Assembly (NCBI GenBank): GCA_000283635.1
Contig: HE613570.1
Span: forward strand, 1 to 12,728
From: Streptococcus macedonicus ACA-DC 198
Lineage (GTDB): Bacteria > Bacillota > Bacilli > Lactobacillales > Streptococcaceae
Reading direction: 5' to 3'
Length of the DNA: 12,728 nt
The translations under genes and the position numbers were made by a program. Positions within the stretch are counted from its first letter, which is position 1. Each line of letters opens with the position of its first letter. Shown one piece after another: positions 2,943 through 12,728 of the stretch. A model generated the notes under the pieces. That model was not told the origin of the DNA. It saw only the letters and a list, made by a program, of their open reading frames with translations, and searched no databases.

Positions 2943-3524
2943 ATGAATAGATTTTTTAAACCCATTAAATATTTAGGGATCTTGATGGTTGTTATTGTTA
3001 TTTCAGCTGTAATAACCTATATTATCAATCCTAATTTATCAGATACATTAAATTCTGTATCAAGCAATGTCCCAAAATCCGTATCACAAAAATCAGGATT
3101 ACAATTAGTAGTTGCGTATATTTTTAATAATGGGTTTAAAGTCCCGATAGGTATGTTAATTTTATCAATTATACCTATCCGATTTTTATATTGGATTCAG
3201 CCACTTTTTACAGTCATACTACCTGGAATATTATTTGGTATAGTTTTTAGATATTCGTTGGCAAAAGGATTCGTTATTTTAATCTCCTCGCTCCCTCATA
3301 TGTTATTTGAGGTCTTCGCATTTTGCGTATGGATGGTAGCTTTGGATCAATTTAATAAATGGATTAGATACAAAATATCTAAGAAAAAAAGTGCCGATAC
3401 AAATCTATTGAAAGAGTTAAAATTATTATTAAGCCCTTATATTAAATATGTTCTCCCATTAATTGCTATCGCAGCTTTCACCGAAACTTACGTTGCTGAT
3501 TGGATTAGTCATATATTAAGTTAA
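2943..3524 (+). CDS. SpoIIM-like (DUF95) integral membrane protein
   Basis: A 193-residue hydrophobic protein with an N-terminal membrane segment (about 9-28), a short polar outside stretch, several membrane segments (about 66-140), a basic cytoplasmic loop (WIRYKISKKK, about 140-150) and a final segment (about 167-186). LPHMLFEVFAF (about 117-127) and IAAFTETYVADW (about 176-187) fit the two conserved Glu-containing motifs of the stage II sporulation protein M family, which also occurs widely in non-sporulating Firmicutes with no settled role. It has a good ribosome binding site, and its stop codon overlaps the ribosome binding site of the recombinase gene, so the two are probably cotranscribed. 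The function on the plasmid is unknown. Confidence 0.7.
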   Translation: MNRFFKPIKYLGILMVVIVISAVITYIINPNLSDTLNSVSSNVPKSVSQKSGLQLVVAYIFNNGFKVPIGMLILSIIPIRFLYWIQPLFTVILPGILFGIVFRYSLAKGFVILISSLPHMLFEVFAFCVWMVALDQFNKWIRYKISKKKSADTNLLKELKLLLSPYIKYVLPLIAIAAFTETYVADWISHILS

Positions 3525-3539
3525 AGGAGGAGTACTAAT

Positions 3540-4130
3540 ATGGTTCAACAAATCGTTCTACCCATCAAAGATTCAAATATCTTAAAAATGGTTCAAGACA
3601 CCTTACTTGATAGCTTTCGTTCTGGACGTCGTAACTATACGATCTTCCAAGTTGGAAAAGCAACGCTTCTACGTGTGAGTGACGTCATGAAGCTAAAGAA
3701 ATCAGACGTATTCAATCCTGACGGAACAGTAAAACAGACTGCTTTCATTCATGATCAAAAGACAGGTAAAGCGAATACTTTGTATTTAAAACCTGTCCAA
3801 CAAGATTTATTGATGTATCATGATTGGCTGGTCCAACAAAATCTGAATTCCGAGTGGCTATTTCCTTCAACTGCTCGTCCTGACCGTCATATCACGGAGA
3901 AACAGTTTTATAAGATTATGGCACGAGTTGGTGATCTTTTAGGAATTAACTATCTAGGAACGCATACCATGCGTAAAACAGGTGCGTATCGTGTTTATAC
4001 GCAATCAAACTATAACATTGGGTTAGTCATGCATTTATTAAACCATTCAAGCGAAGCCATGACCTTAACCTATCTTGGTTTAGATCAAGCTAGTCGAGAA
4101 ACTATGCTCGATCAAATTGATTTTGGATAA
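3540..4130 (+). CDS. Minimal tyrosine recombinase/integrase (intact copy)
   Basis: A 196-residue site-specific recombinase consisting almost only of the catalytic domain. The catalytic set is visible: Arg45 (LLRVSDV), Lys77 or Lys74 in the beta-hairpin (DQKTGKANTLYL), His142 and Arg145 (HTMRKTG), His169 (LLNHSS) and the nucleophile Tyr178 (LTYLGL). The usual N-terminal core-binding domain of about 100 residues is missing. This short form is common on plasmids of lactic acid bacteria and may serve multimer resolution or cassette exchange; neither is shown here. The start is fixed by AAAGGAGG (3523-3530), 9 nt before the ATG. A diverged second copy lies at 8444-8960. An IS6-family element begins 24 bp after the stop. 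Confidence 0.88.
   Translation: MVQQIVLPIKDSNILKMVQDTLLDSFRSGRRNYTIFQVGKATLLRVSDVMKLKKSDVFNPDGTVKQTAFIHDQKTGKANTLYLKPVQQDLLMYHDWLVQQNLNSEWLFPSTARPDRHITEKQFYKIMARVGDLLGINYLGTHTMRKTGAYRVYTQSNYNIGLVMHLLNHSSEAMTLTYLGLDQASRETMLDQIDFG
3615..4130 (+). repeat. Long direct repeat, copy 1 (recombinase gene)
   Basis: This 516-bp segment is colinear, without visible indels, with 8445-8960. Identity is uneven: synonymous differences are frequent in the 5' half, while a stretch starting at 3898 (matching 8728) is almost identical for about 85 bp. The two copies are in direct orientation and flank the IS6/usp/mntH/IS3 insert. Confidence 0.9.
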
Positions 4131-5008: not shown

Positions 5009-5446
5009 TTACTTAATAACTGTAATTGAGATTGGAGAATTTTTAACCATATAAGTAGCATGCGAACCAAAATATCCTTTAATTCCATGCATTGATCGCG
5101 ATCCAATGATTAAGATATCTGCAGATGTTGCTGGCAAAATCGTCTTAGTAATTTCCTCGGCCGGATCACCTTCTCCACTGTACAGCTGAATGTTTTTTAC
5201 ACCGCTATTTTCTGCATATTGTTTGTACTTTTTCAAATTAAGTAACAATTGACTTCGTTTCTGGCTCAAGTACTCAGGGTCTAACGCTTCATAAACATTC
5301 AACTCTTCAATTTCTAAAATTGAGGCAATCAGTAATGCGGCTCCAGTTTTACTCGCTTGCTTTACAGCATATTGAAAGGCTTTTTGAGCTCCTTCTGATT
5401 CATCTACCCCAACTAAAATATTTTTAAATTCATCAAATCCTTCCAT
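5009..5446 (-). CDS. Universal stress protein, UspA family
   Basis: A 145-residue single-domain UspA-type protein. The N-terminal strand (NILVGVDESEGAQKAFQYAV) and C-terminal strand (ISITVIK) are typical. The nucleotide-binding loop is GSRSMHGIKGYFGS (about 116-129), in which a Ser replaces the usual second Gly of GxxGx9GS, so ATP binding is likely but not certain. The start is the ATG at 5446, with AAAGG inside the end of mntH as ribosome binding site. The gene is 8 bp behind mntH on the same strand and is cotranscribed with it. An mntH-usp pair is a known arrangement in lactobacilli, suggesting a role in stress linked to manganese or oxidative conditions. No terminator is visible between its stop and the IS6 end 44 bp away. 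Confidence 0.92.
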   Translation of the reverse strand: MEGFDEFKNILVGVDESEGAQKAFQYAVKQASKTGAALLIASILEIEELNVYEALDPEYLSQKRSQLLLNLKKYKQYAENSGVKNIQLYSGEGDPAEEITKTILPATSADILIIGSRSMHGIKGYFGSHATYMVKNSPISITVIK

Positions 5447-5454
5447 AGTGCATC

Positions 5455-7032
5455 TTACCTTTCATTAATTAATTGATTATATTTTTTATTTCCTTTATAC
5501 AGTTCAATAATTGTCCACGCTAACAGTAGTAATACTGCGACGATAATGACATAGGCAATAGAATCAGCTAGTACAAGTTGGCTTGATGTCACCTTTTCAC
5601 CAAAAAAACCTTCAATTTGGCCGGGCAATCCAATCAAATTTAAATATGTCAATCCAATTACTGAACCCCATCCTAGTATCCGAATAACTATCGAATTTTT
5701 AAACCGGCTTCCCATTTCCACCTCACTATTGGTCATCATTAATAATGGTACCATCGAAAATGGTAACGCAAAAGCTAAGAAGACTTGTGAATTATTCATT
5801 AGTGTATTTAACGCTGTGTGCTCCCGAATCGTTCCTTGCCTGCTTGTAATAATTACACAGATTAACACTGGGATAACTGAAATCAAACGCGTAATTAAAC
5901 GTCTTAGCCAAATTGGCATTCTCATATGAATGAATCCCTCCATAATTACTTGTCCAGTTAAAGTTCCGGTAATCGTTGAATTTTGTCCAGAAGCTAGTAA
6001 CGCGACTGCGAATAATGTAGAAAGAAGACCTGATTTTGCAACGGTGATTAAAATTCCGTTACTCAATGTATCCGAATTTGATAAAGCCTCATACAACCCA
6101 AAGAATGATGGATCTTTCACTGCCCCTGTTTTAAAAACAGCAACTCCCATTATGAGCAATAAGGAGTTAACAAAAAAAGCGAGAGTCAATTGAATGTTAG
6201 AATCCCATGTTGAAAATCGTACAGCATTGGCGATTTCATCTTCATCCGTACGATTTATCTTTCGAGTCTGAGACACAGCCGAATGTAGATATAAATTATG
6301 AGGCATAACGGTTGCACCAATAATTCCTAATGCACCAGTTAAAGGCGTTTGACCACCAATTGAATGTGTAGAGGAGAACGTTTCACCAGTCGGAACCAAT
6401 CCTTTAAGTACATCCCCCCAATTAGGATCAGACAACGCTACTTGATAAACAAACACAAAAAGAATTACAAAAATCAAACAGACAACTATTGCTTCAATTT
6501 TTCTAAAACCAACTTTCGTTAACAACAATAATAATAAAACATCAAATACCGTAATAAAGACTGCGACGACAAGCGGAATATTAAAAAGTAAATAAAGAGC
6601 AATTGATGCGCCAATTACTTCCGCAATATCTGTTGCCATAATCGCTAATTCCGTTAAAATCCATAAAATGATTCCTAGTTTTTTACTCGTTCTCGCTCGA
6701 ATTGCTTGAGCTAAATCCATTTGACTAACAATTCCCAATTTAGCAGCCATATATTGTAATAGCATTGCAATTAAACTAGACATTAAAATGACCGACATTA
6801 ATAAATACTGGAAGTTTTGCCCACCCGTAATCGAAGTAGACCAGTTGCCTGGATCCATATATCCCACAGCAACTAATGCTCCCGGTCCAGAATAGGCGAA
6901 CAGGGTTTTCCAAAAGCCTTTGCCTTTGGGTACCCTGACAGTTCCGTTAATTTCCTCTAAAGAGGGACCATTCGCATGCTGAATTAATCGAGGTTTGTAC
7001 TCTTTACCAGACTGACTTGTTGTATCTTTCAA
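5455..7032 (-). CDS. mntH: Nramp-family Mn2+/H+ symporter MntH
   Basis: A 525-residue proton-coupled divalent metal transporter of the cytoplasmic membrane, importing Mn2+ and possibly Fe2+ or Cd2+. The two metal-binding motifs are intact: Asp60-Pro-Gly-Asn63 in the first membrane helix (GYMDPGNWS) and Met243-Pro-His245 in the sixth (VMPHNLYLHS). The Met is the residue that favours soft transition metals over Ca2+. A soluble N-terminal tail of about 40 residues precedes 11 or so hydrophobic segments; the length fits Nramp proteins of lactobacilli. The start is TTG (7030-7032), supported by the upstream AAGGAAGGTGG. A usp gene follows in the same operon. A DtxR-type palindrome upstream (7101-7114) points to Mn-responsive repression by a chromosomal MntR-like protein. 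Confidence 0.95.
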   Translation of the reverse strand: MKDTTSQSGKEYKPRLIQHANGPSLEEINGTVRVPKGKGFWKTLFAYSGPGALVAVGYMDPGNWSTSITGGQNFQYLLMSVILMSSLIAMLLQYMAAKLGIVSQMDLAQAIRARTSKKLGIILWILTELAIMATDIAEVIGASIALYLLFNIPLVVAVFITVFDVLLLLLLTKVGFRKIEAIVVCLIFVILFVFVYQVALSDPNWGDVLKGLVPTGETFSSTHSIGGQTPLTGALGIIGATVMPHNLYLHSAVSQTRKINRTDEDEIANAVRFSTWDSNIQLTLAFFVNSLLLIMGVAVFKTGAVKDPSFFGLYEALSNSDTLSNGILITVAKSGLLSTLFAVALLASGQNSTITGTLTGQVIMEGFIHMRMPIWLRRLITRLISVIPVLICVIITSRQGTIREHTALNTLMNNSQVFLAFALPFSMVPLLMMTNSEVEMGSRFKNSIVIRILGWGSVIGLTYLNLIGLPGQIEGFFGEKVTSSQLVLADSIAYVIIVAVLLLLAWTIIELYKGNKKYNQLINER

Positions 7033-7223: not shown

Positions 7224-8087
7224 CTATATTTTCTTAAAATAATTTTCTTCTTTCTGATTTGGAGTTAAACCCTTGTTGGCGGAATGAGGATTATAATTGT
7301 TATAAAATTGTTCGATGTATTCAAAGCAAGAGAGTTGAACTTCTTAAATGGAGTGATAAGTTCTGCGATTAATTTCTCGTTGTTTAAGATACTTGAAAAA
7401 GACCTCAGTGACGGCATTATCATAAGGATATCCAGGCTTGGAGTAAGAAGCAAGCAATTGATACTCATCTAATAACTTTCTAAAGGAAGCTGATTTAAAT
7501 TGGCTTCCTTGGTCCGAATGAAAGATAATTGGTTCCTTAGGCTTCCTCTTATTTATAGCTATCTCTAAGGTGTCACAGGCGAGTTTGGCATCAATCCTAT
7601 CACTTACTTTCCACGCAATACATTTCCTTGAGTAGAGGTCAAGAATAGCACAGAGATAAACATGTCGTTTAGGTCCTATAGAGATATAAGTGAAATCTGT
7701 TGTCCAAACTTGATTTGGGGAGTTCGGGTTAAATTCTTGTTTAAGCAGATTATCAGAAGAAAATACAGGAGCTTTCTTTGATTTAAAACGAGGTTTGATG
7801 GTTGACATTTTAGGGAGTGTCATAGACTTGAGAAGTCTTAAGATACGGCCTTAAGAAATATTAACGCCATAATCACGCAGAAGAATGATTTTAAAAGCTC
7901 TCGTTCCAATTCTTTTCTTGGCTTTCATATAAATCTCAAGGAGTGATTTTCTCAAACGTTGATTTTCTACTTCACGCTTCGAAGGATTCTTATTTATGAA
8001 GTTATAGTAGGTGGAACGATTGACATGTAAAACACGACAGAGCATAACTGTCGTGTGTTCAAATCTGAGTCTATAGATGGCTTTCAA
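7224..8087 (-). pseudogene. IS3-family transposase OrfB, two nonsense mutations
   Basis: Read through, this gives a full-length IS150-type integrase-like transposase of 287 codons. The HTH_21 region is near the start (VLHVNRSTYYNFINK), and the rve domain has the catalytic triad Asp (VWTTDFTYI), Asp (FHSDQGSQF) and Glu (VTEVFFKYLKQRE). Two in-frame TAA codons interrupt it, at 7851-7853 (after YGVNIS) and 7344-7346 (after RRTYHSI). After the second, the expected tail continues in the same frame (EVQLSCFEYIEQFYNNYNPHSANKGL...FKKI). There is no frameshift. The protein cannot be made whole. Confidence 0.88.
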
Positions 8088-8089
8088 TC

Positions 8090-8365
8090 TTACTTGGAGT
8101 TTTGCATGAATATGGCACTCGCTTTTTTTAAGATCAGATTTTCTTCCTCTAGTTGGGCATTCCTTTTTTGTAATTTTTGAATCTGTTTAGCAGTCAACAC
8201 CGTATTATCTTCAAGACGCACTTGAGAGTACTGCTTAATCCATTTTGCAAGTGCAGAAGAAGATACCCCATAATCTTTACAGAGTTCAGTTTGTGTTTTA
8301 CCAGTTTGATAGAGATTAACAAGCGATTGTTTGAAATCCTCGTTGTAACGTTTAAAAACTGACAT
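8090..8365 (-). CDS. IS3-family transposase OrfA
   Basis: A 91-residue protein with an HTH (TELCKDYGVSSSALAKWIKQY, about 32-52) and a C-terminal leucine-zipper helix (KQIQKLQKRNAQLEEENLILKKA), as in OrfA of the IS150 group. The start is ATG at 8365, preceded by AAAGGAC; a longer upstream reading would cross the IS end. The frame is intact, and an A7 run near its end is the expected slippage site for the OrfAB fusion. Alone, OrfA usually acts as a DNA-binding regulator of the element. Confidence 0.88.
   Translation of the reverse strand: MSVFKRYNEDFKQSLVNLYQTGKTQTELCKDYGVSSSALAKWIKQYSQVRLEDNTVLTAKQIQKLQKRNAQLEEENLILKKASAIFMQNSK
8123..8129 (-). other. Programmed -1 frameshift (A7) site of the IS3 element
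   Basis: On the minus strand the orfA codons TTA AAA AAA G contain the in-phase slippery heptamer A AAA AAA. A -1 slip continues as AGC GAG TGC CAT and runs without a stop into the orfB sequence (LKAIYRLRFEH), giving the expected OrfAB junction. Confidence 0.7.
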
Positions 8366-8443
8366 AAAAGTCCTTTCATTTTTGTGTCTTAATAGACAGA
8401 TTATAACACCCAATTTTCTGTCCACTTTTATAGTATAGCTCCA

Positions 8444-8960
8444 TTTTCGTGCTGGTCGTCGCAACTATACAATTTTCCAAGTTGGGAAAGCGACCTTGTT
8501 AAGAGTAAGTGATGTCATGAAATTAAAGAAAACAGATGTCTTTAATCTTGATGGAACAGTCAAACAAACTGCATTTATTCATGATCAAAAAACAGGTAAG
8601 GGAAATACGTTATATTTAAAACCTGTCCAACAAGATTTAATGCTTTATCATGCATGGCTCATCCAACAAAACATGAATTCAGAGTGGTTATTTCCTTCAA
8701 CTTCTCGTCCTGATCGTCCTATTACCGAGAAACAGTTTTATAAGATTATGGCACGAGTTGGTGATCTTTTAGGAATCAACTATCTAGGAACGCATACCAT
8801 GCGTAAAACAGGCGCTTATCGGGTCTATACCCAGTCAAACTATAATATTGGTTTAGTGATGCATTTATTAAACCATTCAAGTGAAGCCATGACCTTAACG
8901 TATCTTGGATTAGATCAAGCTAGTCGAGAAACGATGTTAGACCAAATTGATTTTGGGTAA
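8444..8960 (+). pseudogene. 5'-truncated tyrosine recombinase (second copy)
   Basis: The frame FRAGRRNYTIFQVGKATLLRVSDV corresponds to residues 26 onward of the intact recombinase at 3540-4130 and continues colinearly to the same stop. The first 25 residues and the ribosome binding site are missing, replaced by the end of the IS3 element, whose sequence puts an in-frame stop at 8436-8438. All catalytic residues are retained (Arg of LLRVSD, HTMRK, LLNHSS, Tyr of TYLGL). An internal TTG (8496) could start a peptide but has no Shine-Dalgarno sequence. Differences from the other copy are mostly synonymous, so both descend from functional genes. Confidence 0.9.
8445..8960 (+). repeat. Long direct repeat, copy 2 (recombinase remnant)
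   Basis: This is colinear with 3615-4130. Homologous recombination between the copies would remove the IS6, usp, mntH and IS3 segment (about 4.8 kb) and restore a single full-length recombinase gene. Confidence 0.9.
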
Positions 8961-9188: not shown

Positions 9189-9220
9189 CTTCTTTTTGTA
9201 TGACAAAAAGAAAGATCTTT

Positions 9221-9440
9221 TGCCCATTTTATTTTTATCAAATGGGCATTTGGCGTTTGCGTAAAGCAAATCGACACAATCCAAAGGGGATAAAAGGGGA
9301 AAGTGAAACTTCCCCCTTTTCAAGCCACATTGTAATACAAGAACGAAGTGCTTTGTATTACAATGTGATAGCTTGCAGTATTTATGGTTTTATATGGTCT
9401 ATTTTGTTATAATGATTGTAACCGAATAGGGCGCAATGCT
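9221..9440. other. Probable origin of transfer (oriT) region
   Basis: This non-coding block directly upstream of mobC is packed with inverted repeats. TGCCCATTT/AAATGGGCA lies at 9221-9229 and 9240-9248. TTTGC/GCAAA lies at about 9255-9270. GGGGAA/TTCCCC lies at 9296-9301 and 9310-9315. A perfect 15-bp pair CACATTGTAATACAA/TTGTATTACAATGTG lies at 9326-9340 and 9353-9367. On the minus strand GCATTGCGCCCTATT (around 9426-9440) contains GCGCCCT, which resembles the nic core of RSF1010/pIP501-type oriTs, although the relaxase here is of the pC221-like type. The region is assigned from position and structure; the nick position is not established. Confidence 0.6.
9405..9413 (+). promoter_or_regulatory. 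Extended -10 promoter of the mobilisation operon
   Basis: TGTTATAAT (9405-9413) is a perfect extended -10 with a poor -35. It lies just behind the 15-bp inverted repeat, so MobC or relaxase binding at oriT could repress it. The leader to mobC would be about 90 nt. Confidence 0.55.
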
Positions 9441-9512
9441 TATTACAAAATCAATGACAAAGGGCGATTGAGGAATGAGCGCTGGGGCATTTTATCTTTG
9501 AGGAGGCTATTT

Positions 9513-9878
9513 ATGGATCAGAAAGAAGTATCACAAAATCAAACAAAGTACATTCAATTTAGATTATCTGAAGAACAATACAATAAGCTGAAAATTTCAG
9601 GAGAAACATATGGACTCTCTCCGAATCTCTATGCGAAAAAATTAGCACAAAAATCTCATTTAAAAAAACCGTATCTCGAACATGACCAAGCGAAATCTTT
9701 ATTGTTAGAACTCTCAAAACAAGGAACGAATTTAAATCAAATTGCCAAGAAACTCAATCAATTCGATCGGATGGACAACCAAGATAAAGAGTTGGTCGAG
9801 GCTTTACGCTATACATACGGAGTACTCGCTCAAGCTCAAAAGGGGTATCAAGAGTTATGGCAACAATTGCAAAAATAA
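9513..9878 (+). CDS. mobC: MobC, relaxosome accessory protein
   Basis: A 121-residue protein. Residues about 12-45 (KYIQFRLSEEQYNKLKISGETYGLSPNLYAKKLAQ) look like a ribbon-helix-helix DNA-binding fold. The middle part, LSKQGTNLNQIAKKLNQ (about 70-86), is the signature of the MobC family of bacterial mobilisation proteins. MobC proteins bind oriT and help the relaxase open the DNA. The start at ATG 9513 is chosen because AGGAGG (9501-9506) lies 6 nt before it; the longer reading from further upstream runs through the oriT region. It overlaps the relaxase gene by 22 bp, so the two are translationally coupled. Confidence 0.92.
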   Translation: MDQKEVSQNQTKYIQFRLSEEQYNKLKISGETYGLSPNLYAKKLAQKSHLKKPYLEHDQAKSLLLELSKQGTNLNQIAKKLNQFDRMDNQDKELVEALRYTYGVLAQAQKGYQELWQQLQK

Positions 9879-11089
9879 GCAATGGCGCAAGTGCAGCGAG
9901 CGCCCTTAATTATGCTTTAGGTCAAAACAGACCCATGCATGAAAAAACTGAACAGTGGCTACAAGACCATCAATTGGAACGTCCTGTGGAGCTGACAAAT
10001 TGTCGGGCAGTTGCCGTGGGTGGAACCAACGGGATTGATCCCTTTATTGCCAAAGAACAATTTGATGTCATTCGACAACTTCATAACCAAACCAAAGAAT
10101 CCAATCAAGTCTTGCGTATTACCCAATCTTTCGCCTTAGATGAACTGAATCCGAAAGTTCAAAAAGACTGGCAAAAAGCCAATGATTTAGGCGTTGAATT
10201 AGCAGAAAATCTCTATCCTAACCATCAAAGTGCTGTGTATACGCATTTAGACGGAAAAAATCACGTCTTACACAACCACATCATTGTCAATAAAGTCAAT
10301 TTAGAGACAGGAAAGAAATTAAGAGAACAAAAAGGAGAAAGCGTTCAACGAGCACGAGAAATGAATGATCGACTCGCTTCTCGAGAAAACTGGCACATTT
10401 TAGAGCCACCAAAAGAGCGCCAAACAGAGACAGAAAAAGAACTAATCGCCAAAAATGAGTATTCTTACATGGATGATTTGAGAGAAAGAATCAATAAATC
10501 GCTTCAAGATGTCTCTGTGAGCTCATATGAGACGTTTAAAGAGCGTTTATCCGATAATGGTGTAATTCTATCAGAAAGAGGCCAAACGTTCTCATACGCC
10601 TTTTTAGACGCCAATAATAAGCAAAGACGAGCACGAGAGACCCGATTGGGTTCTGATTTTGGAAGGGAGACCATTTTACATGAGTTGGAAAAGAGAACAA
10701 AACAAAACGAATTTAGCGCTGTTGAACAACGAGAACCAGCGCTTACTCCGCTTGAGCGAGACACTCAACAAAGAGAATCAGAAATTGTTAGCCTTGAACA
10801 AGCAATTGAACCAAGAAAATCAGAAGCTCTCAAGCGAGAATCAACAATTAATCGATTTATTGACACAATCAAACAGTTTGCAGGACGAGTACCAGAACTT
10901 ACTCAACGCGTTACAAGAAAATTAAAGCAAACAAAAGAGAAAATCCTCGATGATTTTGAACGTCGCTTTTCAAAGGACATGAAAAATTACGAGCAAGAAC
11001 AACAGAAAAGCCTAGAAAAACAAGCGAATAGAGACGTACAGTCCGAAAAGAAACCAACAAAAGATCATGATCGGGGGATGAGTCGATGA
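9857..11089 (+). CDS. mobA: Relaxase MobA, MOB-P type
   Basis: A 410-residue DNA strand transferase that nicks oriT and pilots the strand during mobilisation. The likely catalytic tyrosine is Tyr19 (SALNYALG). The metal-binding histidines are His130, His139 and His141 in YTHLDGKNHVLHNHIIVN, the three-His motif of Relaxase/VirD2 family proteins; PNHQSAVYTH precedes it. The N-terminal 230 residues or so are the relaxase domain and resemble pC221-type MobA. The C-terminal part (about 280-410) is highly charged and low in hydrophobic structure, partly because its DNA also encodes another protein in a second frame. It is coupled to mobC at its start (22-bp overlap) and to the next gene at its stop (ATGA). 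No secretion genes are present, so a helper element is needed. Confidence 0.92.
   Translation: MATIAKISNGASAASALNYALGQNRPMHEKTEQWLQDHQLERPVELTNCRAVAVGGTNGIDPFIAKEQFDVIRQLHNQTKESNQVLRITQSFALDELNPKVQKDWQKANDLGVELAENLYPNHQSAVYTHLDGKNHVLHNHIIVNKVNLETGKKLREQKGESVQRAREMNDRLASRENWHILEPPKERQTETEKELIAKNEYSYMDDLRERINKSLQDVSVSSYETFKERLSDNGVILSERGQTFSYAFLDANNKQRRARETRLGSDFGRETILHELEKRTKQNEFSAVEQREPALTPLERDTQQRESEIVSLEQAIEPRKSEALKRESTINRFIDTIKQFAGRVPELTQRVTRKLKQTKEKILDDFERRFSKDMKNYEQEQQKSLEKQANRDVQSEKKPTKDHDRGMSR
10680..10925 (+). CDS. Nested leucine-zipper protein inside mobA (alternative frame)
   Basis: An 81-residue protein read in a frame different from mobA and lying wholly inside it. Leucines occur at exact seven-residue spacing from residue 15 to 57 (15, 22, 29, 36, 43, 50, 57), and the heptad NxENQxL is repeated (NNENQRL, NKENQKL, NQENQKL, SSENQQL). 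This is an ideal parallel coiled coil with buried Asn. GGAAGGGAG (10661-10669) stands 10 nt before the ATG. ColE1-type plasmids also nest small mobilisation genes (mbeB, mbeD) inside the relaxase gene, and MbeD-like proteins are small and helical. I infer an analogous mobilisation or entry-exclusion role, without claiming homology. The regular heptads are in this frame, not in that of mobA, which argues for real coding. Confidence 0.7.
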   Translation: MSWKREQNKTNLALLNNENQRLLRLSETLNKENQKLLALNKQLNQENQKLSSENQQLIDLLTQSNSLQDEYQNLLNALQEN

Positions 11090-11712
11090 ATAAAGATGAA
11101 CAACTCGTTGTTCAAGTATTAAATGCTTATAAAAATGGCAAAATTGATTTCAGTAACGTTCCAGAACTATACCGCTTAGTCCGTCAAGAAGTTAATAAAG
11201 ACTTTCGGGACTACCAAGAAAAAATAGAAGCTGTTGCGAATCAAAAAATGGAGTCTGCCATTCAAGAACAACTCCATCGTTTAGAGGCAGAAAACTTAAA
11301 AGCGACCATACTGAAAGACATTCAAGTTGAAAAACAAGCATTACTCGCTTTGAAAAAAGAACTGAATGAACAAAAAGAGCAGATAAAAGCAGATCGCAAA
11401 CGTGAGATTGTCGAACGTTACGGTATTCTGATTGCGAACATTGTCTGCCTGTTCTGTTTCTTAGTTGTCGGTATTCTCATCGGACGATGGATTTATAAAG
11501 GTATCTGGGATGGTTGGGGTTTACATATTTTGTATGATACTGTGATTGAGATACAGCCTAAACATCCTTATGGGGCAGTCGTTCTTGGATTAGGTGGATT
11601 TGGATTAATCGGTGCTGGAATCTATGGCAGTTTTCGATTGATGTATGAAGCTTCAACGACTTGGTTAGATCAACGTCCAAAAATCTTTAAAAGAATCTTT
11701 CCGAAAAAATAG
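11086..11712 (+). CDS. Mobilisation-operon membrane protein with coiled coil and two TM segments
   Basis: A 208-residue protein that starts in the ATGA overlap with mobA. Residues about 1-40 are soluble, about 40-108 form a Glu/Lys/Gln-rich coiled coil, about 113-137 (YGILIANIVCLFCFLVVGILIGRWI) and about 161-186 (YGAVVLGLGGFGLIGAGIYGSFRLMY) are membrane helices, and the C-terminus is basic (RPKIFKRIFPKK). Both ends would therefore face the cytoplasm. Its place suggests that it links the relaxosome to the membrane or a coupling protein, but I do not recognise a named family. Similar genes are expected behind relaxase genes of other plasmids of lactic acid bacteria. Confidence 0.75.
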   Translation: MNKDEQLVVQVLNAYKNGKIDFSNVPELYRLVRQEVNKDFRDYQEKIEAVANQKMESAIQEQLHRLEAENLKATILKDIQVEKQALLALKKELNEQKEQIKADRKREIVERYGILIANIVCLFCFLVVGILIGRWIYKGIWDGWGLHILYDTVIEIQPKHPYGAVVLGLGGFGLIGAGIYGSFRLMYEASTTWLDQRPKIFKRIFPKK

Positions 11713-11728
11713 AGAGTGAGGTAATCCT

Positions 11729-12331
11729 GTGGTTTTAGAAAATAAATTAGGCTTAACCAATTCAGCAGAATTAGCTAAACAAGAAGAGTTATTAACGAAA
11801 AAAAGAGCCAAAGAATTGTTTGAGTCTGGCAAAATAGAGGATCTGGCAATTGGGACGTTTCAAGGTTTATCTGATATTCATCAGTTTTTATTCCAAGATA
11901 TTTACGACTTTGCGGGAAAAATTCGAGAAGTGAATATTGCGAAAGGAAACTTTCAATTTGCGCCACGTATTTTTTTAGCGCAAACACTTGAATATATTGA
12001 TAAATTACCTCAAGAAACATTTGATGAAATTATTGATAAGTATTCGGATATGAATGTGGCGCATCCTTTTAGGGAAGGCAATGGACGAGCCACTCGTATC
12101 TGGTTGGATTTAATTCTTAAAAATAAACTACACAAAATCGTCGATTGGAATCAAATTGATAAGGATGAATATTTAAATGCCATGATCCGTAGTACAGTCA
12201 GCACCAATGAATTAAAATATTTGATTCAAAAGGCATTAACCGATGATTTAGGAAAAGAACAATTCTTTAAAGGAATTGATGCGAGTTATTATTACGAGGG
12301 CTATTACGAAATTAAAACAGAAGATCTATAA
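11729..12331 (+). CDS. fic: Fic-domain protein adenylyltransferase (class III-like, self-inhibited)
   Basis: A 200-residue Fic enzyme that transfers AMP from ATP to hydroxyl groups of target proteins. The complete active-site motif HPFREGNGR (about 112-120) follows DMNVA, and the flap KGNFQFAP (about 72-79) precedes it. Near the C-terminus Ser186-Tyr-Tyr-Tyr-Glu190-Gly matches the inhibitory motif (S/T)xxxE(G/N). Its position at the C-terminal end and total length agree with class III Fic proteins such as the one described from Enterococcus faecalis, in which the Glu blocks productive ATP binding. The start is GTG at 11729, with GAGTGAGGT 6-7 nt upstream. The gene is 16 bp behind the membrane-protein gene and is the last of the mobilisation operon. 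No separate antitoxin gene is seen, as expected for self-inhibition. Its targets are unknown. Confidence 0.92.
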   Translation: MVLENKLGLTNSAELAKQEELLTKKRAKELFESGKIEDLAIGTFQGLSDIHQFLFQDIYDFAGKIREVNIAKGNFQFAPRIFLAQTLEYIDKLPQETFDEIIDKYSDMNVAHPFREGNGRATRIWLDLILKNKLHKIVDWNQIDKDEYLNAMIRSTVSTNELKYLIQKALTDDLGKEQFFKGIDASYYYEGYYEIKTEDL

Positions 12332-12350
12332 ACACGTATAAACACGATTT

Positions 12351-12400
12351 AAAGAAACAGACTGCTCAATATAAAACTTGAGCAGTCTGTTTCTTTTTTT
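12351..12400 (+). terminator. Strong terminator of the mobilisation operon
   Basis: A perfect 19-bp stem (12351-12369 with 12378-12396) with an 8-base loop runs into a T7 tract (12394-12400). It insulates the replication origin from the mob-fic transcript. The A-rich left base may allow action on the other strand. Confidence 0.92.
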
Positions 12401-12541
12401 GGATGATTTTGACCTTTGGTTTTAAATTTTTGAAAAAAATAAAAAATAGGCGAAGCCTATTATATATTTATCTTATATATTTTAATCTTTTATTCTTTTG
12501 CGTGCCCAAAAAGTCAGCAATAGTAAGGCTATGCAGATTTT
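12401..12541. other. AT-rich part of the replication origin
   Basis: This very AT-rich stretch includes TATATATTTATCTTATATATTTT (12461-12483), the likely melting region of the theta origin. A short hairpin AATAGGC-GAA-GCCTATT (12445-12461) sits at its left edge. No gene is seen. Confidence 0.7.
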
Positions 12542-12624
12542 TATAGCAAGAAAAAACTGTGTATATAGCAAGAAAAAACTGTGTATATAGCAAGAAAAAA
12601 CTGTGTATATAGCAAGAAAAAACT
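12542..12624. repeat. Origin iterons: three and a half 22-bp direct repeats
   Basis: Three identical tandem units start at 12542, 12564 and 12586 (each TATAGCAAG, A6, CTGTGTA), followed by a partial fourth at 12608-12624 that keeps 17 of 22 bases. The period of 22 is two helical turns. This 3.5-unit array just upstream of repB is the hallmark of lactococcal-type theta origins and is the expected RepB binding site. Confidence 0.95.
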
Positions 12625-12652
12625 AGATAACCTTGCTATATTATGATATAAT
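12624..12652 (+). promoter_or_regulatory. repB promoter with an inverted half-iteron
   Basis: A perfect TATAAT (12647-12652) with a TGA extension before it lies 17 bp after TAGATA (12624-12629), a moderate -35 that overlaps the end of the last iteron. CCTTGCTATA (12631-12640), between them, is the inverted copy of the iteron start TATAGCAAG, so RepB could bind here and repress its own gene. Confidence 0.75.
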
Positions 12653-12656
12653 AAAA

Positions 12657-12694
12657 GCATAGAGAAAATTCACGACGAAATGACTTCTCTATGC
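12657..12694. repeat. Inverted repeat in the repB leader
   Basis: Perfect 10-bp arms GCATAGAGAA (12657-12666) and TTCTCTATGC (12685-12694) are separated by 18 bases, downstream of the repB -10. They could form an mRNA leader hairpin or a regulator site. Related lactococcal origins carry inverted repeats at this position. Confidence 0.7.
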
Positions 12695-12712
12695 CTACTT
12701 AAAATCACTCAC

Positions 12713-12728
12713 AAAGGAGTAACTTTCT
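12713..12728 (+). promoter_or_regulatory. repB ribosome binding site at the window end
   Basis: AAAGGAG (12713-12719) lies 9 nt before the last base, and base 1 begins the repB ATG. The spacing is right only if the molecule is closed, so this site both sets the repB start and supports circularity. Confidence 0.85.

Follow-up and report, generated by a model that had tools for sequence, protein, structure and literature searches.

The window, as the whole 12,728-nucleotide stretch of DNA analysed here is called, is a plasmid-like contig, and its last third is a mobilisation region (Table 1). The nested ORF, mobA and the protein encoded from 11086 each have a 100% match in a 12,729-base plasmid of Streptococcus macedonicus. 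The hexamer that follows the inverted repeat of the probable oriT is the one postulated as the nic hexamer in Lactococcus garvieae plasmids (PMC3387028). The frame of mobC extends open to an earlier ATG at 9384. The MOBP type assigned to mobA is the typing given for its close relatives; the tail of this relaxase gene is overlapped by the nested gene under study, and its stop codon by the start of the 11086 gene (ATGA).

Table 1. Features of the mobilisation region, in window coordinates
Feature	Position	Strand	Basis and remarks
Probable oriT	9326..9377	+	Perfect 15-nt inverted repeat 9326-9340/9353-9367, then CTTGCA 9372-9377
mobC, relaxosome accessory protein	9513..9878	+	NikA-like PF21983, MobC PF05713
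mobA, MOBP-type relaxase	9857..11089	+	Pfam Relaxase PF03432 at residues 47-179
Shine-Dalgarno GGAAGGGAG of the nested gene	10661..10669	+	Within mobA codons 269-271 (G-R-E); ends 10 nt before the nested ATG
Nested gene, predicted 81-aa leucine zipper/coiled coil, unannotated	10680..10925	+	+1 frame inside mobA; ATG at 10680, stop ends at 10925
Downstream 'mobB', 208 aa	11086..11712	+	N-terminal half charged and coil-like, followed by hydrophobic segments (by eye)
fic, protein adenylyltransferase	11729..12331	+	NF046029; last gene of the mob cluster

Beyond the mob cluster, an antisense RNA (ctRNA_pND324, RF00238, 83.6 bits) occupies 12644-12728 on the minus strand, at the contig end just before rep. 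Copy-control RNAs of theta plasmids are located just before rep. By eye, a repeat containing tatagcaagaaaaaact occurs about four times ahead of the antisense RNA, at about 12540-12624, and these copies are perhaps iterons. In the remainder of the window, a very similar pair of integrase-like ORFs (3540-4130 and 8496-8960, both on the plus strand) flanks a stretch of other ORFs, among which a universal stress protein-like ORF (5009-5446), an Nramp-type metal transporter-like ORF (5455-7032) and IS3-like transposase pieces (7344-8464) were recognised by eye only.

Leucine heptads in the +1 frame of mobA

The nested product carries leucine at residues 15, 22, 29, 36, 43, 50 and 57, which makes seven in register, and asparagine at residues 19, 33, 40, 47 and 54 in the other core register; heptads with leucine at d, by which a leucine zipper or coiled coil is recognised, are thus present. 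The initial annotation had described a seven-heptad leucine zipper in a frame other than that of mobA, together with NxENQxL repeats. The zipper lies in the +1 frame as described, and the repeat is exact at three places, a fourth reading SSENQQL. The claim that such regularity is very unlikely by chance was also borne out, as evident from the occurrence of the seven-leucine run in 0 of 1000 synonymous recodings of mobA and in 0 of 5000 shuffles of the product's residues. The mobA frame over the same bases is irregular, as had been stated, with a leucine-heptad run of 1 and a longest heptad run of any one residue of 4.

When mobA was recoded with its own codons and the MobA protein kept, the nested stretch was left open in none of the 1000 recodings. 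The longest open run of the +1 frame in the 3' 45% of the window mobA is 105 codons as compared to a shuffle mean of 44, and 1 of 500 shuffles is as long; the +2 frame is ordinary, its longest open run being 29 codons as compared to a shuffle mean of 29.8. Neither tandem repeats nor direct repeats of at least 15 nt were found behind the zipper, and its regularity is therefore no by-product of repeated DNA.

Seven-leucine heptad runs are also present in the nested products of L010, L011 and L021. The run is not general: it comprises 4 leucines in L058, a length equalled or exceeded in 63 of 1000 shuffles, and 2 in L012, for which the corresponding figure is 933 of 1000. Two protein matches, P0004 and P0005, are without 35 of the zipper residues, which equals five heptads, and the nested lengths of 81, 95 and 110 are roughly a whole number of heptads apart, which would fit a coil that grows or shrinks by heptads.

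More distant relatives were compared as 33 clusters, obtained by clustering 59 intact mobA sequences at 90%, and the open run was scored in the 3' 45%. This set leaves out L015, L016 and L020 (no mobA match), L019 (a copy of the window), L007, L008, L029 and L030 (broken mobA), L017 (masked), L018, L037, L061, L069 and L071 (cut short or with a stop) and L073-L090. In 16 clusters, no more than 25 of 500 shuffles have a +1 open run as long as the real one; the remaining 17 exceed that number, and the +2 open run is as rare as this in 1 of the 33. It is scarcely credible that the nested frame is a chance product of favourable composition or an echo of repeated DNA. The amino-acid composition of the mobA tail does favour long +1 frames (shuffle means of 44 codons in the window and up to about 150 in L066), but the zipper arises in 0 of 1000 shuffles, DNA repeats were not found, and relaxases that share about 30-50% identity have a nested ORF at the corresponding place.

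Start site, conservation and selection

Twenty-eight of the 33 mobA clusters carry a nested ORF with a length of 60 aa or more. Its start maps to a single alignment column, at mobA residue 275 where relaxase and tail join, in 24 of these 28, the window's cluster included; the four that start off this column are L023, L062, L027 and L052. Starts were assigned as the first ATG with a Shine-Dalgarno, or else the first start codon, a preference that favours finding a Shine-Dalgarno. The good ribosome binding site claimed earlier was upheld in part: the Shine-Dalgarno listed in Table 1 is present, but it is only fair and weaker than the AAGGAG(G) of most relatives, the window codons being AGG GAG and not AAG GAG. 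In the relatives it often lies within the codons for the motif Y-E-K-E. Where Lys-Glu stands at this place, it is written AAG GAG in 17 of 17 clusters as compared to a mean of 5% expected from their own usage, the 17 clusters being related and so not 17 independent events. The background usage in these genes is 4-54% AAG for Lys (AAG plus AAA) and 6-50% GAG for Glu.

In 12 of the 28 clusters, a stop codon precedes the nested start by no more than three codons, and in L058, L011, L021, L014 and L040 it abuts the start; the nested gene in the 12 must therefore have its own start. This bears on the possibility that translation enters the nested frame solely through +1 frameshifting from mobA, extending MobA at its C-terminus into a relaxase-zipper fusion. 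The window itself would permit such a reading, its nested frame being open for 24 codons before the ATG, but the upstream stops of the relatives and the maintenance of the Shine-Dalgarno by codon choice make it highly improbable.

Close relatives were represented by 25 gapless full-length copies, the window included, and in all 20 of their haplotypes the nested frame runs uninterrupted to one shared stop; gapped copies (L007, L008, L029, L030 and L082) and partial ones (L015 and L016) were left out of this set. On a tree of 19 haplotypes, from which L084 was also left out for a stop inside mobA, 13 of the 52 changes that fall in the nested stretch are synonymous for mobA, as are 143 of the 208 upstream of it and 28 of the 56 downstream. 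The scarcity in the nested stretch has a Fisher p of 1.2e-8 as compared to upstream and 0.0099 as compared to downstream, values to be read with the changes not being independent, because many of them arise repeatedly on the tree, which points to recombination.

Variable sites at mobA codon positions 1/2/3 number 28/12/92 upstream, 10/8/8 in the nested stretch and 12/5/20 downstream, so that the third position holds 92 of 132, 8 of 26 and 20 of 37 of them, respectively. At the level of sites, the contrast of the nested stretch has p = 0.0003 against the 5' part and p = 0.078 against the short 3' flank. The usual third-position excess of mobA is gone where its third position is the second of the nested gene, and this is the codon-position bias in favour of the nested frame that the initial annotation had predicted.

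Copies in which mobA is broken by a frameshift or stop (L007, L008, L029, L030, L082 and L084, the last of which is also counted among the 20 haplotypes) keep the 81-aa nested ORF intact in 5 of 6 cases. Stops in the nested frame of homologues had been named beforehand as the observation that would speak against a nested gene, and they were met with at the edges only: L030, with its broken mobA, is damaged in the nested frame as well, and 5 of the 33 distant clusters are without a nested ORF of at least 60 aa.

Within the overlap, conservation of the +1 frame exceeds that of mobA in three of four distant clades, with identities of 0.84 as compared to 0.73 in the Carnobacterium-type clade (L025 and nine loci), 0.46 as compared to 0.39 in the pNZ4000-type clade and 0.69 as compared to 0.60 in the L. 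plantarum-type clade (three loci). Upstream of the overlap the order is the opposite, the +1 frame and mobA having identities of 0.64 and 0.85, 0.41 and 0.69, and 0.61 and 0.84, respectively. The +1 frame of the staphylococcal type (six loci) is not better conserved (0.29 as compared to 0.35). Among identical mobA residues, the fraction with different codons decreases from upstream to overlap in the three clades (0.29 to 0.07, 0.46 to 0.26 and 0.29 to 0.09) and in the staphylococcal type (0.48 to 0.39). Together with the intact frame of the gapless haplotypes, this conservation agrees with the earlier proposal that selection acts on the nested frame. Because the nested frame is the more conserved in three of the four clades tested, the locus is also a clean system for studying overlapping genes.

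Short and long nested forms

In 21 of the 28 clusters the nested ORF is of a long form that passes the mobA stop, and a hydrophobic segment typical of a membrane helix is present in 20 of these 21; in the exception, L067, the hydrophobic segment sits in the next open frame. The other seven (the window, L058, L010, L011, L021, L012 and L014) are of a short form that ends inside mobA, and none of them has a hydrophobic segment. The window product ends 55 codons before the mobA stop, and its best 19-residue hydropathy of -0.23 is not that of a C-terminal membrane helix. Five of the seven short forms, all of pNZ4000 type, are followed by an ATGA-overlapping gene with a coil-like half and then hydrophobic segments (by eye), and no hydrophobic ORF was seen in the 400 nt after mobA in L012 and L014.

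This division has a bearing on whether the constraint on the overlap acts on RNA or DNA, such as an mRNA structure or a regulatory site, the zipper being an untranslated by-product. Synonymous constraint alone cannot tell protein from RNA. However, the leucine heptads in four of six short forms tested, the hydrophobic C-terminal segment of the long forms and the common start column all argue for a protein, and an Rfam search of 9200-12728 at the gathering threshold returned nothing but the antisense RNA at the far end. An explanation at the level of nucleic acid is thus very unlikely.

In a relaxase tree of 30 sequences, the short forms constitute one clade (bootstrap 96), in which the five of pNZ4000 type group at 100. 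The short clade is placed among the long forms, the nodes for this placing having a support of 49-70 and the root being ColE1 on a long branch. In our reading, the nested gene of the short branch probably lost its membrane part, which a separate gene would have taken over.

Comparison of profiles gave a probability of 48 over 22 columns for short against long nested proteins (A1 v A4; reversed control 1.5) and of 0.2 for the short against the staphylococcal type (A1 v A2; reversed control 6.6). The 11086-type protein against A2 gave 66 for the whole length and 0.75 for the membrane halves alone (reversed controls 0.4 and 0.2). By these comparisons, the short product cannot be shown to be homologous to the long nested proteins beyond coil-likeness, nor the membrane half of the 11086 protein to DUF334, and a model in which MobB is split between two genes therefore rests on position and complementarity.

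Known nested relaxase genes, proposed role and annotation

Nested relaxase genes are of a known kind. MobB and MobD of ColE type are termed 'internally encoded' (PMC9282650), mobB of RSF1010 lies inside mobA/repB in another frame (PMC2200642), and mobA, mobB and mobC of pKKS49, from an MRSA isolate, partly overlap (PMC6157413). The pNZ4000-type mobCABD operon of Lactococcus has the same genes as the window, and pNZ4000 itself (L031) carries the nested ORF. The region is described with four genes, mobC, mobA, mobB and mobD, and that of pNZ4000 as shown to be functional (PMC6098607); the nested gene, for which the pNZ4000 record has no feature, would be the fifth.

The nested mobB of pC221 resembles the window gene in its +1 frame relative to mobA, its start on the same alignment column, its purine-rich ribosome site in mobA codons, its coil-like N-terminal part and the mobC-mobA order. 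It differs in that the pC221-type MobB passes the mobA stop and ends in hydrophobic segments, whereas the 81 aa of the window product lie wholly within mobA. DUF334 (PF03904) is absent among the eight profile matches listed up to E = 1 for the window protein. It is present in 2 of 10 nested proteins scanned, both of staphylococcal type (L024, 1e-73; L063, 1e-9), and not in L064, the third of that type, or in the seven others. Staphylococcal MobB is required for mobilisation and dispensable for nicking.

A parallel with the ColE1-type nested genes, without evident sequence similarity, had been drawn in the initial annotation, and the layout proves to be even closer than stated. Both mbeB and mbeD lie in the +1 frame of the relaxase gene mbeA, mbeB starts 12 alignment columns, or seven mobA residues, upstream of the common nested start column, and MbeD is a coil-like protein of 77 aa. 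The alignment that places ColE1 and pC221 leaves out L046 and L054-L057, which have no nested ORF. Unlike the window, ColE1 has two nested genes instead of one and belongs to the Proteobacteria and not the Firmicutes. MbeB (PF04837) and MbeD (PF04899) are absent among the eight matches listed up to E = 1 for the window protein, ColE1's own proteins do match these profiles as a control, and no similarity to MbeD was detectable by profile comparison. The window gene has nearer relatives than these in the nested mobB of Gram-positive MOBP plasmids such as pC221. The mobB of RSF1010/R1162, likened here by description, is also an accessory mobilisation gene in another frame of a relaxase gene, although that relaxase is of a different family, MOBQ; the MobB of R1162 is membrane-associated.

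The stretch 10680-10925 is almost certainly a real, selected protein-coding gene, and its position, frame and start make it very probably the counterpart of a nested mobB. Our main reading, held with a probability of roughly 0.8, is that of a real, translated overlapping gene, which would be the pNZ4000-type counterpart of the nested mobB of Gram-positive MOBP plasmids and an accessory to the relaxosome. Frameshift fusion, RNA-level constraint and chance were set aside, chance being already contradicted by the shuffles, the repeat search and the recurrence of the ORF.

Under the main reading, ribosomes would start independently on the mobC-mobA mRNA, at the Shine-Dalgarno built into the mobA codons. 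The product is likely a soluble parallel coiled coil, judging from its heptads, and would form a dimer with leucine at d and mostly asparagine at a. We infer from the sequence that it is translated, dimerises, binds partners and has a role in transfer, most likely as a relaxosome accessory that would couple the MobA-MobC-oriT complex to the membrane and to the coupling protein of a helper plasmid. In most relatives the nested protein would do so with its own C-terminal membrane helix; the window branch has no such helix, and there the membrane part probably comes from the separate 11086-11712 protein. That the nested product is a relaxosome-to-membrane adaptor working with the 11086 protein has, in our estimate, about an even chance.

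The short nested form and the downstream membrane-protein gene in the pNZ4000-type clade fit such a split MobB. The alternative that survives best is also a real gene, whose product would act alone or on MobA only, in relaxase dimerisation, exclusion or regulation, and would not be half of a split MobB. By its form (77-81 aa, coiled, no membrane helix) the product resembles ColE1 MbeD, named in its record as a mobilization/exclusion protein. In the MobQ plasmid L088, a protein related to that of 11086 is encoded at 3001-3693 without a nested coil, and the 11086-type protein therefore does not always need a nested partner. The position of the nested gene, however, matches MbeB and pC221 MobB and not MbeD, which lies further downstream in mbeA, and the gene arrangement of the pNZ4000-type clade agrees with a split; we regard this alternative as a serious one that falls short of even odds. 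Plasmids of Lactiplantibacillus and Furfurilactobacillus also carry relatives of the 11086 protein beside relaxase genes annotated as MobQ, and the protein looks like a module exchangeable between relaxase families.

A wider form of the split model, which we consider doubtful, would see one ancient overlapping gene at the MOBP relaxase-tail junction, from Firmicutes to ColE1, in the +1 frame and encoding a relaxosome membrane adaptor. It would have split in the pNZ4000 branch, the coil being kept in mobA and the anchor passing to an exchangeable gene that also joins MobQ relaxases. If this were true, the relaxase tail would be largely a passenger of the nested gene.

The nested gene looks like an overlooked, reduced version of the accessory genes of other mobilisable plasmids, and it is unannotated in the records examined. 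Constructs that change the mobA tail would affect two proteins at once. The ORF matches 126 plasmid records from dairy and other Gram-positive bacteria; among the 60 of these 126 listed, the annotation under the match is a relaxase, one 'hypothetical protein' that lies in the mobA frame, nothing, or no annotation at all. Among 5.8 billion proteins searched, the 81-aa product has five relatives, the contigs of four of these being shorter than mobA, and in Pfam and NCBIfam it has weak matches only, none near a curated cut-off. No description of the nested gene was found in a literature search whose scope did not take in the original pNZ4000 paper, and it is not mentioned in the gene lists for the pNZ4000 type in PMC6098607 (four genes) or PMC4420470 (mobC, mobA and mobB).

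The long nested mobB is annotated only by a downstream piece, mostly the part projecting beyond mobA, in L025 (1188-1343), L023 (2474-2857), L027 (2516-2710), L028 (1435-1587) and L085 (1290-1745), where its start has probably been mis-called. Because five related records annotate only such a piece, nested mobB is probably under-reported. In the record of L024, the long nested gene is annotated nearly whole.
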